DNA of 64,000 nucleotides, from NCBI GenBank assembly GCA_027483445.1, contig JAIXUS010000085.1, positions 1 to 64,000 on the forward strand, in the 5' to 3' direction. Below, in pieces: positions 1,713-59,605 of the stretch. The notes under the pieces were generated by a model. That model did not search any database. It was not told the DNA's origin and saw nothing but the letters and a program-made list of their open reading frames with translations. Source of the stretch: Bacteroidota bacterium. GTDB lineage: Bacteria; Bacteroidota; Bacteroidia; M30B66. How positions within the stretch are numbered: the first letter of the stretch is position 1; each line of letters opens with the position of its first letter. Position numbers and translations under genes: made by a program.

Positions 1713-1966
1713 GCTTCAAAATAAGCATCAATGCATGGGCAAAACAAATGCTCAGGGTTTGCCCGGCTTATTCAGCCGGATGACAATACGGCTTAGTGTA
1801 TTGGTAATCTGTATTTTGATGCGGATCGATAGATCACATACGGCTTATTTTCAGCCCTACAGGCCGAACAATTGCTTGAAGCCAGAAACCGAAGTGCTAT
1901 TTGGGTTGGATGACCTCCCGTCGCTTCCTACAACTTTAACGCAGTTACCGTTAATCTTTCTGTTAC

Positions 1967-4267
1967 CTACCACTTGAAATTCACCCCAATGCTCGGCAGA
2001 ATAGGCAATTGGTCAACGCGTTCGAATTTTACACGGTCGAAGTAAAAGATGTTCTCACGGTTGTAAAGGTTTGTAACCCCCGCGGTAAACTCGAACAAAC
2101 TGCGGTCGCCCACAGGCAAGGTTTTCTTAAGGTTTACATCGAGTCTGTGATAATCAGGCAGGCGCCCTCCGTTTAAGTCGCCAAAGGCTGTTCCAAGTGT
2201 ACCATTGCCGGTGGTGTAGTCGCCGGCAATGTTTCCAGCAAGGTTGAAGTTCTCGTAAAAACCTTGAGTTTGTGTGAACGGAAAGCCTGATCCGTAGTTC
2301 CACCGTGCGTTAAATTCCCAATCGAGCTTCTTGCCGAAATTGTACGAAATCAAGAGGTTCACATTGTGTCGGCGATCCCAAACGGGGCTGTAGGTAATCA
2401 GGTCGTCTTCGCGGGTTACTTTCATGAGCGAGTACACAGCCCAGATGTACACGCGCTTGCGCTCGTATTTGAGCACCATGTCGAATCCTTGCGAAGTACC
2501 GCGTTCGAGAATAAAATCTTGCTTGAGAATATCAGGTTGGTCTTCGTTGGCCGGAATATCATCGTACAGCTTGTTTCGATTGATATTGGTGAGTTGGTTG
2601 AAGTCGAAGAAATAAGCTTCTGCGTTGATTTTCAGGTAGCGGGTAATGTTGCTTTCGAAGCCCGCGATCAGGTGTCGGGCCTTCTGTAAGCGTGAGTTAA
2701 CAGTTTCACCCTGAAAGGTGTTTGGCGAATTGTCGGGGGCCGAAAGGAATCCGTAAAAGAGATTCACCACATCTCGGTCTGATACACCGGCAATGAGGTT
2801 TTGCGAGTACAAACCTCCAGAGGCCTTCAACCTGAAATTGTCGGTAACATTGTATTTGATACCCAAACGTGGTTCGGGCGAAGCTTCGGAAAGCGAAGCA
2901 TAATACTGAAGTCTGAAGCTTGGCTCCACCACGAAGTTACCCGCAATTAGTCTGTATTTGAAATACAGCCCCAATTCGGAAGAGTTGTTCACCTGCTCAA
3001 TTTTCCGGTTTACCTCGTTAAAGAAGGTGAAGTCTGTTGAGAAACCGATGGTTTCTACACCCCATTGAAAGTCGTTTTTCCCGAGAAAATACTTGAAATT
3101 CAAATTTAGGTTAAAGCCTGAAATGCGGCTTGATCTTGCAGGCTTGCTGGCTTCTTCCAAACGGATGGCATAGTCGGAAAAACTCACAGAACCATCGAAA
3201 ATAAACCCTGAATTGTTGGGAATCAACACGAAACTTGATCCTCCGCCAAAGGTGTTCCAGCTGAGGTTTTGCAAACTGCGGTATTTAACACGATCGGTAA
3301 AGTTAAAGCCGCTCAGACTCAGCTTTGAGCCATTGTTACCGGCAAAGGTGAGCTTTCCGTAAAGGTCGGTAAAATTGAATGGTAGCCCTGCTGTGTCTAC
3401 GTATGGGTAGAACACTTTTGACGATTGTTCAAGGTACGACGTACGTCCGCTAAGCACATAGGAAATCGAACTTGCATCGTCGTCTTTTTGCTTGCTTAGT
3501 GGTCCTTCGAACTGGATTTTAGACACGAATGGGCTCACTGAGGCCTTACCACTGAGGCGCTTTTTATCGCCATCCTTGGTGGTTATCTTCATGATCGACG
3601 AAACCCTTCCGCCAAACTCAGCCCCAAAACCTCCGGTGTATACATCGGCATTACGCACCACGTCGGTGTCGAATACTGAAAACAACCCAATGGAGTGGAA
3701 AGGATTGTAAATGATCATGCCATCCAGCAACACTTTATTCTGAATGGGCGAACCTCCGCGGATATAAAGCTGACCGCCCTGGTCGCCTGTAAATGTTACA
3801 CCCGGTAATACCTGAAGATACTGCGCTAAGTCGGGTTCTGCACCCACGGTAGGCAGTTTATTGATTTCTTTGGAAGTAATCGTGGTAACGCCTGTTCCCA
3901 CGCGGCCTTGCTCATTGTCTTTCTCGCTGCTGATCTCAAACTCTTTGAGTACAACATCCTTCTCGGTAACATTGAGGTTCTTTTGGAGAATCTGACCAGC
4001 TTTAAGGCTCACCGAAACGGCCAAAGAATCAAAGCCCATCGCGCTGAACACGAGCTTGTAGTTGCCTTCGGGAATTCGGGTGATCGAATAAAAACCGTTT
4101 ACGTCAGTTTGTGCTCCCAACTGGGTACCTTGCAGGTAAACATTGGTGAAAATGACCGGTTCGCCATTCTTTTTATTGTAGATGAATCCTCGTAATGTAG
4201 CCGTTTGAGCGGCAATGTTTAATGAGAAAACGGTGAGCAGCAGTGCAAGTAGAGAAAATCGATTCAT
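1967..4267 (-). CDS. TonB-dependent receptor with carboxypeptidase-regulatory-like N-terminal domain
   Basis: Outer-membrane receptor of about 766 residues for energised uptake of an unidentified ligand. The first ATG (4267) gives a clean signal peptide ending NIAAQ; an upstream in-frame TTG was rejected because a perfect -7 box (TATCTTTG, 4285-4292) would leave it almost no leader. After the signal comes a CarboxypepD_reg-like beta-sandwich (TLRGFIYNKKNGEPV, then GAQTDVNGFYSI), then a plug domain (QLYIRGGSPIQNKVLLDGM and the GFGAEFGGR motif), then an aromatic-rich barrel ending in a terminal FKW. No SusD partner or substrate enzyme lies next to it, so it is not a standard SusCD polysaccharide locus. 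Confidence 0.9.
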   Translation of the reverse strand: MNRFSLLALLLTVFSLNIAAQTATLRGFIYNKKNGEPVIFTNVYLQGTQLGAQTDVNGFYSITRIPEGNYKLVFSAMGFDSLAVSVSLKAGQILQKNLNVTEKDVVLKEFEISSEKDNEQGRVGTGVTTITSKEINKLPTVGAEPDLAQYLQVLPGVTFTGDQGGQLYIRGGSPIQNKVLLDGMIIYNPFHSIGLFSVFDTDVVRNADVYTGGFGAEFGGRVSSIMKITTKDGDKKRLSGKASVSPFVSKIQFEGPLSKQKDDDASSISYVLSGRTSYLEQSSKVFYPYVDTAGLPFNFTDLYGKLTFAGNNGSKLSLSGFNFTDRVKYRSLQNLSWNTFGGGSSFVLIPNNSGFIFDGSVSFSDYAIRLEEASKPARSSRISGFNLNLNFKYFLGKNDFQWGVETIGFSTDFTFFNEVNRKIEQVNNSSELGLYFKYRLIAGNFVVEPSFRLQYYASLSEASPEPRLGIKYNVTDNFRLKASGGLYSQNLIAGVSDRDVVNLFYGFLSAPDNSPNTFQGETVNSRLQKARHLIAGFESNITRYLKINAEAYFFDFNQLTNINRNKLYDDIPANEDQPDILKQDFILERGTSQGFDMVLKYERKRVYIWAVYSLMKVTREDDLITYSPVWDRRHNVNLLISYNFGKKLDWEFNARWNYGSGFPFTQTQGFYENFNLAGNIAGDYTTGNGTLGTAFGDLNGGRLPDYHRLDVNLKKTLPVGDRSLFEFTAGVTNLYNRENIFYFDRVKFERVDQLPILPSIGVNFKW

Positions 4268-4284
4268 GCCAGTATTCAAGCGGC

Positions 4285-4292
4285 CAAAGATA
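4285..4292 (-). promoter_or_regulatory. -7 box of TonB receptor gene
   Basis: Perfect TAnnTTTG (TATCTTTG on the minus strand). With transcription starting 4 nt after the box, the leader would be about 13 nt. No convincing TTTG -33 box is visible. Confidence 0.55.
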
Positions 4293-4544
4293 AACGCTTT
4301 TATAAACGCTTGGCGGCGACAAATTACCGACTTTATCGTCGCTCATTTACTCATGTTAAGGAAAACACTTGGCAGGCTATCGACATTGTTCAGTGTGGAA
4401 AATCATGGATTAATTCGACATAGAAAAAGAGCCGTAAGGTTTGTTATTACTAAGTAGTTCGATGAATGATTGGCTTTGGAAGCGTAAGATTGTTGTATCC
4501 TTTTTTGTGCTGCCCGACGCTGCGTAACTGGAATAGTGTACTTT

Positions 4545-55555: not shown

Positions 55556-56609
55556 GTTATACCCAGTTACGTTTATTTTATTTCATAGATTAAATGAATT
55601 ATCTATTATGTAACATTATTTTTGATAGCTAAACTTTTTTTTTAACAACGTGTTTTTTGCAAAATAACGATATGATTTTACTCGACCTTTTTTGTCAAAC
55701 CATGATACACTATAGTAAGAATCATGAGTTGGTGAATTTTCGAAGTATAATCTTATTCGCCATGGTATGCTTGTCTTTATAGGTTGGATGTCTGTCAAAT
55801 TGTTCCGTTTATAGTAAGTACTATACAGATTTATTTGCTTTCTTCCCCAATATCGATAAACAGTTCTGATCTCAGTTACTTTCTCCGTATCGAATCCAAT
55901 CTCTACAACCGTTTTTTTTCGTATACGTCCTTGTTCATCTGTCTCGTATTGAAATGTGAGTTTATTACCTTCACAATTGCAATTTGAATTTGTTGCAGAA
56001 ACGAATGCGTTTGTTGTAGAGTCAAATTGCATCGTCATGCCACAGTCATTGCAACGACTCCTGCTGGAAGTAGATAAGTGATTCATAGAATCATATTCAA
56101 ATCTTCTTATATCAATGGTGTCTCCACCCGCTGTCAGTCGTATTTGTTTTTTGAGTCTTCCCGAATCGTCAAGAAGACTTTCGAAATAGTAAGGCCTCGG
56201 ATTTCTGGTTGTGTCCCAGATCAAAAATCTTGTGCTATCTATCCCGTCTATATATCTTGCCCAGCTGAATTTATATCTAAACTTTTTTTCTAGCAATGAG
56301 TGATATACTAGTTTATATGTCTGGCTATAGTTGTCCCGTTTTTTAGAGTCTTTCGAATTCCAGCTAACAAAATTTAAACTATCAACAGATCCTGACCAAC
56401 TGTAAAACCTATTGCCTGTTTCGTCTGATTTTATTTTGCATTTAATACGAAAGTTTGATTCATAAAAAACAGAATATTCGTCCGGTTCGAAAATCAATTG
56501 TGCACGTCCGTAATTTGTTAGACTAAAAAGAAGAAATAAAAGATATATTTTAATTTGTGTCATCGAAAAGTATCCTGGGCCTATAGCTTTGTCTGTAATT
56601 GGGCATAAC
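55556..56609. repeat. Short inverted repeat bracketing one AT-rich gene
   Basis: GTTATACCCAGTTAC at 55556-55570 and GTAATTGGGCATAAC at 56595-56609 are inverted and agree at 13 of 15 positions. They enclose one AT-rich gene (55616-56563). A weaker relative, GTTATACTCATTTG, lies at 59141-59154 beyond the other end of the AT-rich block. The function is unknown; a recombination or insertion site is one possibility. Confidence 0.5.
55616..56563 (-). CDS. Secreted protein with RHS/YD-like repeats, unknown function
   Basis: 315 residues when started at MTQIKIYLLFLLFSLTNYGRAQ, which is a good signal peptide; a longer reading to 56704 lacks one. The C-terminal half contains YD-like strands (RFEYDSMNHLSTSSR, FQYETDEQGRIRKKTVV and SWFDKKGRVKSYRYF), and a Cys cluster (RCNDCG ... 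NCNCEG) that may hold metal. The gene is much richer in A and T than the adjoining regions, with matching codon use, and is bracketed by short inverted repeats, so recent acquisition is likely. Confidence 0.6.
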   Translation of the reverse strand: MTQIKIYLLFLLFSLTNYGRAQLIFEPDEYSVFYESNFRIKCKIKSDETGNRFYSWSGSVDSLNFVSWNSKDSKKRDNYSQTYKLVYHSLLEKKFRYKFSWARYIDGIDSTRFLIWDTTRNPRPYYFESLLDDSGRLKKQIRLTAGGDTIDIRRFEYDSMNHLSTSSRSRCNDCGMTMQFDSTTNAFVSATNSNCNCEGNKLTFQYETDEQGRIRKKTVVEIGFDTEKVTEIRTVYRYWGRKQINLYSTYYKRNNLTDIQPIKTSIPWRIRLYFENSPTHDSYYSVSWFDKKGRVKSYRYFAKNTLLKKKFSYQK

Positions 56610-56743: not shown

Positions 56744-57766
56744 TTATTCTTCATATCCAATAAAAAAGTCGGAATTAGATTTTATCCTTACGTCTTTACT
56801 TAATTCAATATTTTCATTACTTATTAAGTTTAAATCCTCATTAATAGCTTGATAGTAAGTTTCTAAAAGCAGTTTCATTGTAACTAGTTCAATCATATTT
56901 CTGTGCATAATTGTAAATTCATTGTGGGTTGAAGAAATTTTGTTTTGATGTTTCATCATCTCCTCATTGAACTTTATGTTTTCGGGAAGCCGTCTAGTAA
57001 CCTCAATGGGTTCGCCATTCCAATGGCCTCCGGGTCTTGCTGGTCCATAATGCAAGAAAGTTTCAGTTTCAGGCTTCTTTGAGGCAAGCGAATATGAAAA
57101 ATCAAAACTATTTAGTGTCGCTTTAATGCTATACTCCTTGACATATTTTGTCATAAGTATATTTTCAAAATTTGTTAAGTACTTATTGTATTGCTTTTCA
57201 TATTCATTGAATAGCTTTACAAGCCTTTCCTTTTTTTCCTCAATTATTTGCTTAACCACAGCTGCACCTTTTCTTTCGGATACAACTTGTGCAAACTCAC
57301 AGATTTGTATTAATCGTGGAATGTGGCTCACCCTATTTTCAAATTTAAAAATATAGGTAAGATTTTCAGTAAGCCTGTCCCAACCTTGCGTATGTATTCT
57401 GTACCTAAGACGTTCTTCTTCCGGTAAATTAAAATAGTTGTTTTGGATACTAATAATGGATGAATATCTTTCATCTAGGGTACTTATATTCAGTTCATTT
57501 CTTACCTCTTCTGCAACAATGGCTCTAATTTTAGATGGTAATTCATCAAGCATAGTTATTATTTGCCTATTTTGTTCAGTAATGAAGTCAATTTTCCTGT
57601 CAATAATATTTAGATGATTCTTTATGTCTTTAAGTAGGCCAATTATTTTTCTATTTTCATCACGTTGTGCAAAGTACCCTGCTATCGCAGCAGCTACGCT
57701 TATACCAGTTGTTACATCGCCTACCGTAACACTTTTCCAAATTATTTTTTCAGTTATACCAGCCAT
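56744..57766 (-). CDS. Helical protein with N-terminal membrane segment, unknown
   Basis: 340 residues. A hydrophobic stretch (about 13-33, VTVGDVTTGISVAAAIAGYFA) is followed by a coiled-coil-rich region (LLKDIKNHLNIIDRKIDFITEQNRQIITML) and then an almost wholly helical body (VVKQIIEEKKERLVKLFNEYEKQY). A Gly-Pro loop (HYGPARPGGHWNGEP) interrupts it near the C-terminus. No catalytic motif. It may be a membrane-associated or pore-related protein, but this is a guess. Part of an AT-rich operon reading 58706-59023, 57778-58728, then this gene (11-bp gap). Confidence 0.6.
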   Translation of the reverse strand: MAGITEKIIWKSVTVGDVTTGISVAAAIAGYFAQRDENRKIIGLLKDIKNHLNIIDRKIDFITEQNRQIITMLDELPSKIRAIVAEEVRNELNISTLDERYSSIISIQNNYFNLPEEERLRYRIHTQGWDRLTENLTYIFKFENRVSHIPRLIQICEFAQVVSERKGAAVVKQIIEEKKERLVKLFNEYEKQYNKYLTNFENILMTKYVKEYSIKATLNSFDFSYSLASKKPETETFLHYGPARPGGHWNGEPIEVTRRLPENIKFNEEMMKHQNKISSTHNEFTIMHRNMIELVTMKLLLETYYQAINEDLNLISNENIELSKDVRIKSNSDFFIGYEE

Positions 57767-57777
57767 AATTTTTGTTT

Positions 57778-58728
57778 TTAGAAAAAGTTCAATAGTGTTG
57801 AATTAAATCTAATTGTCACCATTCCGCCATATTCAATCTTATTAAAATCATCCATTCCTTTTGTCATAATGCTCAAAAACGGACTTAAACCTATTTTTAC
57901 ATTTGCGTTGCCTTTGATTAGCGGATAATAAAAAGTCCAAAACTCAAGACGTAATCTATTTAGACTGTTGAATGGATTTGTTTGTCCTTTGCTTCCAATT
58001 ATATCATAATAAACCGCAGGTGCATAGCTAAAATCTCCCTTACCTGGATAGAATTGAAAAGCAAAGGCAGGTGAGAATGTTGGCTGCACTGAAGGTTGGT
58101 CAACAATCATATTCGTAGTTGTAATTACCCCATTGGAGTTGGGTAGATTAACAACTCCAACTTCCTTTCCTGCCCTCCAATCATAAGAATATCTAATCCT
58201 AATTTGAGGTGAGAATTGCTTTGTTCCAAACTTACCTTGAGTAAAGAACCCAATATATTTGATTTCACCACCAAATGAATTTTCTGCATTTATATTCTCC
58301 TCAGATTTATTTCCTGTTGGATAGTATTTAAACTCTGCAAAGCCATACTCAAATTGTCCGCCAAATGAATGTGTGTTAATTAAACCCCCATCACTGATAT
58401 TATATATGGTATATTGAAGCGCCAGAATGCTTCTCCAAGTACTTGTAAATCTATCAATTTGAACTACATTATCGTTCTTGTTTGTTAAAGGAATTCTGAA
58501 GGTCGGTCTTATCAAAAAAGAATTTCCTCCATCTTTAGATACTTTTGAACCACCAATATCAACTGAATCTTGTTTAAATATAAATTCTGGTCCAACTTCT
58601 AATTGGGCTTCTTTTATAGATGTGTTAACTGTAGCAAATGGTGCTATTTTAAAATTTGCATTTTGAGCAAATGTTTGAGCAGTTGTCACTAACAGTATCA
58701 GGATACTACAAAGTAATGTCTGTTTCAT
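57778..58728 (-). CDS. Outer-membrane beta-barrel protein, unknown
   Basis: 316 residues from the ATG at 58728, which starts a signal peptide (LLCSILILLVTTAQTFAQ); another ATG 9 bp upstream is possible. The body shows amphipathic strands (SFLIRPTFRIPL, SFGGQFEYGFAEFKYY, GEIKYIGFFTQGKFG, IRIRYSYDWRAG, FSPAFAFQFYPGKGDF, YGGMVTIRFNSTLLNFF), ending in Phe as outer-membrane barrels do. No family identified. Its start lies inside the end of the 105-residue gene (overlap of at least 23 bp). Confidence 0.6.
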   Translation of the reverse strand: MKQTLLCSILILLVTTAQTFAQNANFKIAPFATVNTSIKEAQLEVGPEFIFKQDSVDIGGSKVSKDGGNSFLIRPTFRIPLTNKNDNVVQIDRFTSTWRSILALQYTIYNISDGGLINTHSFGGQFEYGFAEFKYYPTGNKSEENINAENSFGGEIKYIGFFTQGKFGTKQFSPQIRIRYSYDWRAGKEVGVVNLPNSNGVITTTNMIVDQPSVQPTFSPAFAFQFYPGKGDFSYAPAVYYDIIGSKGQTNPFNSLNRLRLEFWTFYYPLIKGNANVKIGLSPFLSIMTKGMDDFNKIEYGGMVTIRFNSTLLNFF

Positions 58729-59023
58729 AATAACCATTATTTAGTGTTAAAGTCAAAGATTGGTCATCTGCGGTTCCCGGCAAGTCGATACTTAACTTGA
58801 ATGAAGCTTTTCCAATTCCAACAACACGAATTTTAATTCTAACTTGAGCATCAGGAATTTTTCCCGAAGTGCTTCTTTTCTTTGTACCATCTGCTTGAAT
58901 TACAGGTATGCCATTAATGGAAGCGTAAAATAATGAAACACTTCCACTAACTGCTTCTAAAGAGAGAGAAAATTCTCTTGTCTTTTCTATCTCAAGTATG
59001 TTTAAGTTTTTCTTTTTTGCCAT
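58706..59023 (-). CDS. Small beta-rich protein of unknown function
   Basis: 105 residues, no signal peptide. Lys-rich start (AKKKNLNILEIEKTREFSLS) and two blocks of alternating hydrophobic residues (VSLFYASINGIPVIQADG; VGIGKASFKLSIDLPG) with a C-terminal NNGYYETDITL, suggesting a compact beta-sandwich. First gene of the AT-rich three-gene unit and overlaps the next gene. No match recognised; a chaperone, an immunity protein or a component of a structure would all fit the context. Confidence 0.55.
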   Translation of the reverse strand: MAKKKNLNILEIEKTREFSLSLEAVSGSVSLFYASINGIPVIQADGTKKRSTSGKIPDAQVRIKIRVVGIGKASFKLSIDLPGTADDQSLTLTLNNGYYETDITL

Positions 59024-59230: not shown

Positions 59231-59605
59231 TTCGGCTCCCATGGCCGGTTTCGGTTTTTTGTTTGAAGGAGTGCCTTTTATGCGCCCGTTTTCCCGCGGC
59301 ACGCAAAACTTGCGTTAGAGGCTCGTGTGGTATTGGGCTGTTTGGGGCTCGCCACGGGGCTTACATTTTACCCTGGTGCAGCGGTAAGCCCGCGTTAGCG
59401 GTTGCAGCGGAAAGCCCGGAGCCGCGGCGCAGTGTCCGGCGCGGAGCCGCGGGGGGCGCTGCGGGCGAGGACTTGCAGCGGAAAACGCGGCCGCTGTACG
59501 TGGGTTTACAGTGTTGCCTGAGGCTCGAAATGCGGCAACGCCCAAAACACAGTAAACCACACCTCACTCGCATGTGTGCAGTTTGCTGTGCCTTGGGCGT
59601 GGAAA
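59231..59605. repeat. GC-rich intergenic repeat patch
   Basis: A strongly GC-rich block in the middle of AT-rich sequence, with three copies of TGCAGCGGwAA (59377, 59403, 59474; first two 26 bp apart and extending to TGCAGCGGwAAGCCCG), two copies of GGAGCCGCGG (59418, 59443; 25 bp apart) and an inverted pair GGCTTAC / GTAAGCC (59358-59364 / 59384-59390). Open frames here have no coding features. It may be a REP-like element or the remnant of one; not a CRISPR because the units are uneven and spacers differ in length. Confidence 0.5.

Follow-up and report, generated by a model that had tools for sequence, protein, structure and literature searches.

A short AT-rich segment was found to carry an overlapping gene pair, genes 1 and 2, whose order is conserved in a second genome, and the gene following the pair differs between the two genomes. 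The segment lies within the 64,000 nucleotides of Bacteroidota DNA analysed here (the window). The composition and the distribution of the genes point to a small island that a Bacteroidota chromosome gained by horizontal transfer. In the reading that we favor, which we consider probable, the core of this island is the pair of genes 1 and 2, acting as an accessory module of the cell envelope that is accompanied by changing third genes. The features on which the analysis is based are listed in Table 1.

Table 1. Features of the AT-rich island and its surroundings, in window coordinates.
Feature	Position	Strand	Description
Gene 1 (P0001)	58706..59023	-	105-aa ORF without signal peptide; predicted to fold as a small beta-sandwich, N-terminus disordered and basic
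Gene 2 (P0002)	57778..58737	-	319-aa ORF with signal peptide; predicted outer-membrane beta-barrel
Gene 3 (P0003)	56744..57766	-	340-aa ORF without signal peptide; helical/coiled-coil orphan in the variable third position
Fourth AT-rich gene	55616..56563	-	315 aa from its ATG; ORF open back to 56704
DNA homology block with L023	57771..59083	-	blastn, 79% identity over 1315 columns; 60-bp leader with genes 1 and 2
Short G+C-rich intergenic repeats	59371..59490	.	right of the island only

The three open reading frames that the earlier note had described as one operon, with an overlap and an 11-bp gap, were confirmed on the minus strand. Genes 1 and 2 overlap by 32 bp, genes 2 and 3 are separated by 11 bp, and no terminator-like site was found on the minus strand among the three genes. 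Gene 2 encodes 319 amino acids, or 316 from an ATG three codons downstream, which was the start chosen in the earlier note. The G+C content of the segment from 56744 to 59023 was 33.1%, against 49.0 ± 3.3% in the other 2280-bp windows of the 64 kb; the lowest of these had 39.4%, and the segment is the minimum of the whole 64 kb. The AT-rich island described previously is larger than had been stated, as it includes a fourth gene of 33.9% GC that adjoins gene 3. The product of this gene is predicted to be secreted, and it showed a weak match to RHS_repeat (E 0.0088), which is below the cut-off of Pfam. The fourth gene is a neighbor within the island and at most a candidate for functional membership in the set of genes 1–3. 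The flanking repeats that had been taken as a sign of acquisition were present on the right side only, and nothing comparable was found on the left side of the island. The right-hand repeats (GGGCTTTCCGCTGCAA and its variants) lie in a G+C-rich intergenic stretch from 59315 to 59560, and the surrounding sequence has 48% GC.

The proposal that the segment was acquired held up, on evidence other than the repeats. None of genes 1, 2 and 3 was present in any of the nine other genomes of the same family that were compared. Horizontal transfer is indicated by the low GC content, this sporadic distribution and a block with 79% DNA identity in a distant genome of another order, a Bacteroidales MAG (L023). 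The genes that flank the island match congeneric genomes best, and therefore the contig itself is native. The window comes from a genome assembled in 87 contigs (4.26 Mb), and its order is sparsely sampled, with 10 genomes. No empty site was obtained from congeneric genomes: the contig of the closest relative ends inside the left flanking gene, and G398 is arranged differently.

When 84,980 species genomes were scanned for gene 2, by a method that detects close relatives only, L023 was the single close relative. Its copies of gene 1 and gene 2 encode proteins 84% and 78% identical, respectively, to those of the window, and there too gene 1 is located directly upstream of gene 2 and overlaps it by 32 bp. 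The DNA identity begins 60 bp before gene 1 and ends 7 bp past gene 2, with none beyond, and it thus leaves out nearly all of the leader of gene 3 and the whole of gene 3. The differences between the two copies of the pair are concentrated at third codon positions, and the dN/dS values (NG86) of genes 1 and 2 were 0.12 and 0.11, respectively. From these values, both genes are under purifying selection. At least these two open reading frames are therefore genuine genes that did not arise by chance. The pair in L023 is followed by the gene for a 144-aa membrane protein (P0008, L023 6029–6463), which is unrelated to gene 3, and no counterpart of gene 3 was found in L023. Upstream of the pair, at 1852–4488, L023 encodes a protein of 878 aa that contains three repeats of the GWxFDFxSxDHHIN type and, at its C-terminus, a domain resembling transglutaminases (PF01841, E 3e-6).

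More distant relatives of gene 2, with 41–42% identity, occur without the other genes in two further Bacteroidota genomes (G794 and G1026), and the neighborhoods of the barrel gene differ between them. HEPN-like and YccF-like genes lie near it in one, and a MutS2-like gene in the other. One of these two genomes was searched as a whole and gene 1 was not found; in the other, the MutS2-like gene lies within the approximately 1.5 kb that is readable upstream of the barrel gene. Of the gene order proposed for the three genes, only the part comprising genes 1 and 2 is conserved, with two known instances of the pair; gene 3 is replaced in L023, and gene 2 is also found alone. The unit so appears to be a conserved, horizontally moved pair with an exchangeable third position, the latter from one comparison, because the pair is known in two genomes only.

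For the product of gene 1, a small beta-sandwich is predicted. The AlphaFold2 model, made from two sequences, had a pLDDT of 77.5 and a pTM of 0.68, and contained five beta-strands. Its best fold matches were to the periplasmic partner domains of MmpS5 (PDB 8em5 and 9mvz), with Z scores of 8.0 (89 residues, rmsd 3.2 Å) and 7.8 (100 residues, 4.2 Å), followed by the DUF4425 beta-sandwiches (3u6g and 4qey) with Z 6.9; all of these scores are within the background that the structure-search tool states for such models. Foldseek gave no match for the model at E ≤ 0.001. As the Z scores are at the level of models without true relatives, only the beta-sandwich is claimed here. Gene 1 has no export signal, and therefore its product is probably cytoplasmic. 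Unlike MmpS, the product lacks a membrane anchor at its N-terminus and no partner resembling MmpL was seen, and the identity to the MmpS5 and DUF4425 fold matches is 10–15%. What gene 1 shares with them may be no more than a common beta-sandwich arrangement. The model also weakly matched a viral caspase protein (E 0.05), which suggested a Trypco-like nature of gene 1; this had no Pfam support and was rejected.

Gene 2 very probably encodes an outer-membrane beta-barrel, as the earlier note had proposed, because it combines a signal peptide, an alternating hydrophobicity above that of shuffled sequences and a C-terminal Phe in all family members (4/4). The N-terminus, MVIMKQTLLCSILILLVTT, is hydrophobic (mean hydropathy 1.94) and is followed by an AQ-type cleavage site; the signal peptide was judged from hydropathy and by eye. 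The family-averaged beta amphipathicity (mean moment) was 0.967, compared with 0.755 ± 0.062 in shuffles, and 50 windows of the family exceeded the amphipathicity threshold, compared with 13 ± 7 after shuffling. A C-terminal aromatic residue is the BAM signal. In its signal peptide, beta-amphipathicity and C-terminal Phe, gene 2 resembles the Bacteroidota outer-membrane beta-barrels of about 300 aa. However, sequence searches of Pfam, NCBIfam and the PDB matched it to no family. Its subfamily is unnamed, and the coupling to gene 1 is seen in just two genomes.

Gene 3 remains an orphan. No relatives were found in viral contigs, the 84,980 species genomes, plasmids, phages, or samples of 395 genomes from the phylum and 395 from the class. 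The weak matches that appeared (an SMC-like protein, a TetR-like regulator and a histidine-kinase-like protein) were rejected as unrelated. Its structure model was mostly helix, with a very poor and unusable pLDDT of 38, and its best 19-residue mean hydropathy was 1.33, which falls short of the 1.6 customarily taken for a membrane span. Of the previous description of a helical, membrane-associated protein, the helical part agrees with this very poor model and the membrane association is weak; the product is helical, with at most a weak membrane segment.

The profile searches also agreed with the previous impression that no domain is recognisable, since Pfam, NCBIfam, PADLOC and PHROGs gave no credible match for genes 1–3. 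Sequence searches of the PDB gave no match, no viral relatives of genes 1 and 2 were found, and plasmids contained no credible relatives of genes 1–3. The fourth gene had no credible PADLOC match either, nor had three flanking proteins. Literature searches on integron cassettes in Bacteroidetes and on outer-membrane barrel islands gave nothing bearing on the island.

In the reading that we favor, the barrel, which presumably uses Sec for export and BAM for insertion, would serve as a surface channel or receptor, with the probably cytoplasmic beta-sandwich of gene 1 as its partner. The 32-bp overlap would couple the translation of the two genes. The pair would travel with changing accessory genes, and the third position would here be occupied by the orphan helical protein. 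This has to be weighed against the proposal of the earlier note that the three genes form a dedicated system for transport, defence or antagonism, made of a soluble partner, an outer-membrane barrel and a helical effector. The overlap, the 11-bp gap, the uniformly low GC content and the lack of a same-strand terminator-like site between the genes all agree with such a system, and the absence of gene 3 elsewhere would then be a sampling gap or the result of rapid divergence. However, the only other known pair, in L023, has an unrelated third gene and the homology ends 7 bp past gene 2; the barrel is found without the other two genes; and gene 3 has no relative in the two 395-genome samples, from the phylum and the class, or in the 84,980-species scan, which detects close relatives only. 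We therefore consider a dedicated three-gene system improbable. A somewhat better, but still unlikely, explanation is that the genes are unrelated passengers: genes 1 and 2 would be a mobile pair, gene 2 being an ordinary accessory outer-membrane protein of Bacteroidota, and genes 3 and 4 would be separate acquisitions in an insertion-prone spot, with no joint function beyond the pair. The occurrence of gene 2 alone in two different neighborhoods, the fourth AT-rich orphan adjoining gene 3 and the homology boundary just before gene 3 are in line with this explanation; on the other hand, gene 3 follows gene 2 in the same direction after 11 bp, which favors co-transcription.

An explanation of a different kind invokes site-specific recombination, integron-like or other: the island would be a gene cassette, and the conserved leader GTTGGTGGYAATGCTAAC would be its recombination site. 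It draws on the homology with L023 beginning exactly at GTTGGTGGYAATGCTAAC. However, the leader is present as a single copy in the window, it is hardly enriched in its own genome (7 matches, compared with 5 in the reversed control), the 395 phylum genomes contained 16 matches against 10 in the control, and the viral matches resemble coding sequence (VGGNAN). With copies not clearly above the control in window, genome or phylum sample, a role of the leader as a dispersed recombination site was not supported, and the cassette explanation is very improbable.

As for the role of the conserved pair, the most likely one would be an accessory part in inter-bacterial or phage conflict; we hold this weakly and regard it as rather doubtful. 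Uptake or export across the outer membrane, with no role in conflict, is the next most likely. A conflict role is conceivable, the single and indirect pointer to it being P0008, the third gene of L023, which lies outside the window. The distant relatives of P0008 (27–33% identity) are small membrane proteins. On a Fischerella plasmid, one of them is located between an EAD1-trypsin gene and genes for EAD1-VMAP-C and AAA-ATPase proteins, and on a Bradyrhizobium plasmid another directly precedes a CHAT gene. Loci of the EAD/VMAP/MoxR type belong to the NTP-dependent conflict systems described by Kaur et al. (2020, PMC7159879). The likeness of the pair to the vWA-MoxR/EAD and CHAT systems (PMC7159879) thus runs through P0008 of L023, whose relatives occur in such loci, and the transglutaminase-like protein upstream of the pair in L023 is a further likeness. 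The window proteins differ from the vWA-MoxR/EAD systems in that they have no match to EAD, peptidase, VMAP, MoxR, vWA or Trypco; these Pfam families were absent from genes 1–4 at E values up to 10. The boldest form of the idea would be an undescribed modular anti-phage or inter-bacterial envelope system, in which a fixed pair moves between Bacteroidota orders with interchangeable effectors, one of them from the membrane-protein family of the EAD/CHAT loci. We consider this a long shot.

The P0008 family (L023 6029–6463, L150 4001–4408 and L151 3932–4393) has no Pfam model and shares a motif like IPSEIIAGYL. Its members lie in an EAD1-trypsin/VMAP-C locus of a cyanobacterium, in a CHAT locus of an alphaproteobacterium and, in the Bacteroidales MAG, behind the pair. 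The family may represent a component of EAD/CHAT conflict systems that has gone unrecognised.

The pair is thus an uncharacterised example of a common kind, the horizontally moved outer-membrane protein modules of Bacteroidota, and it provides a modest lead rather than a demonstrated new system. The island is one of many acquired orphan operons, for which a conserved core pair is now defined and the extent has been measured. Should the pair prove to be a genuine module whose third gene changes, two protein families missing from Pfam and NCBIfam would merit models, and the pair would give a handle on undescribed envelope-based interactions in Bacteroidota.
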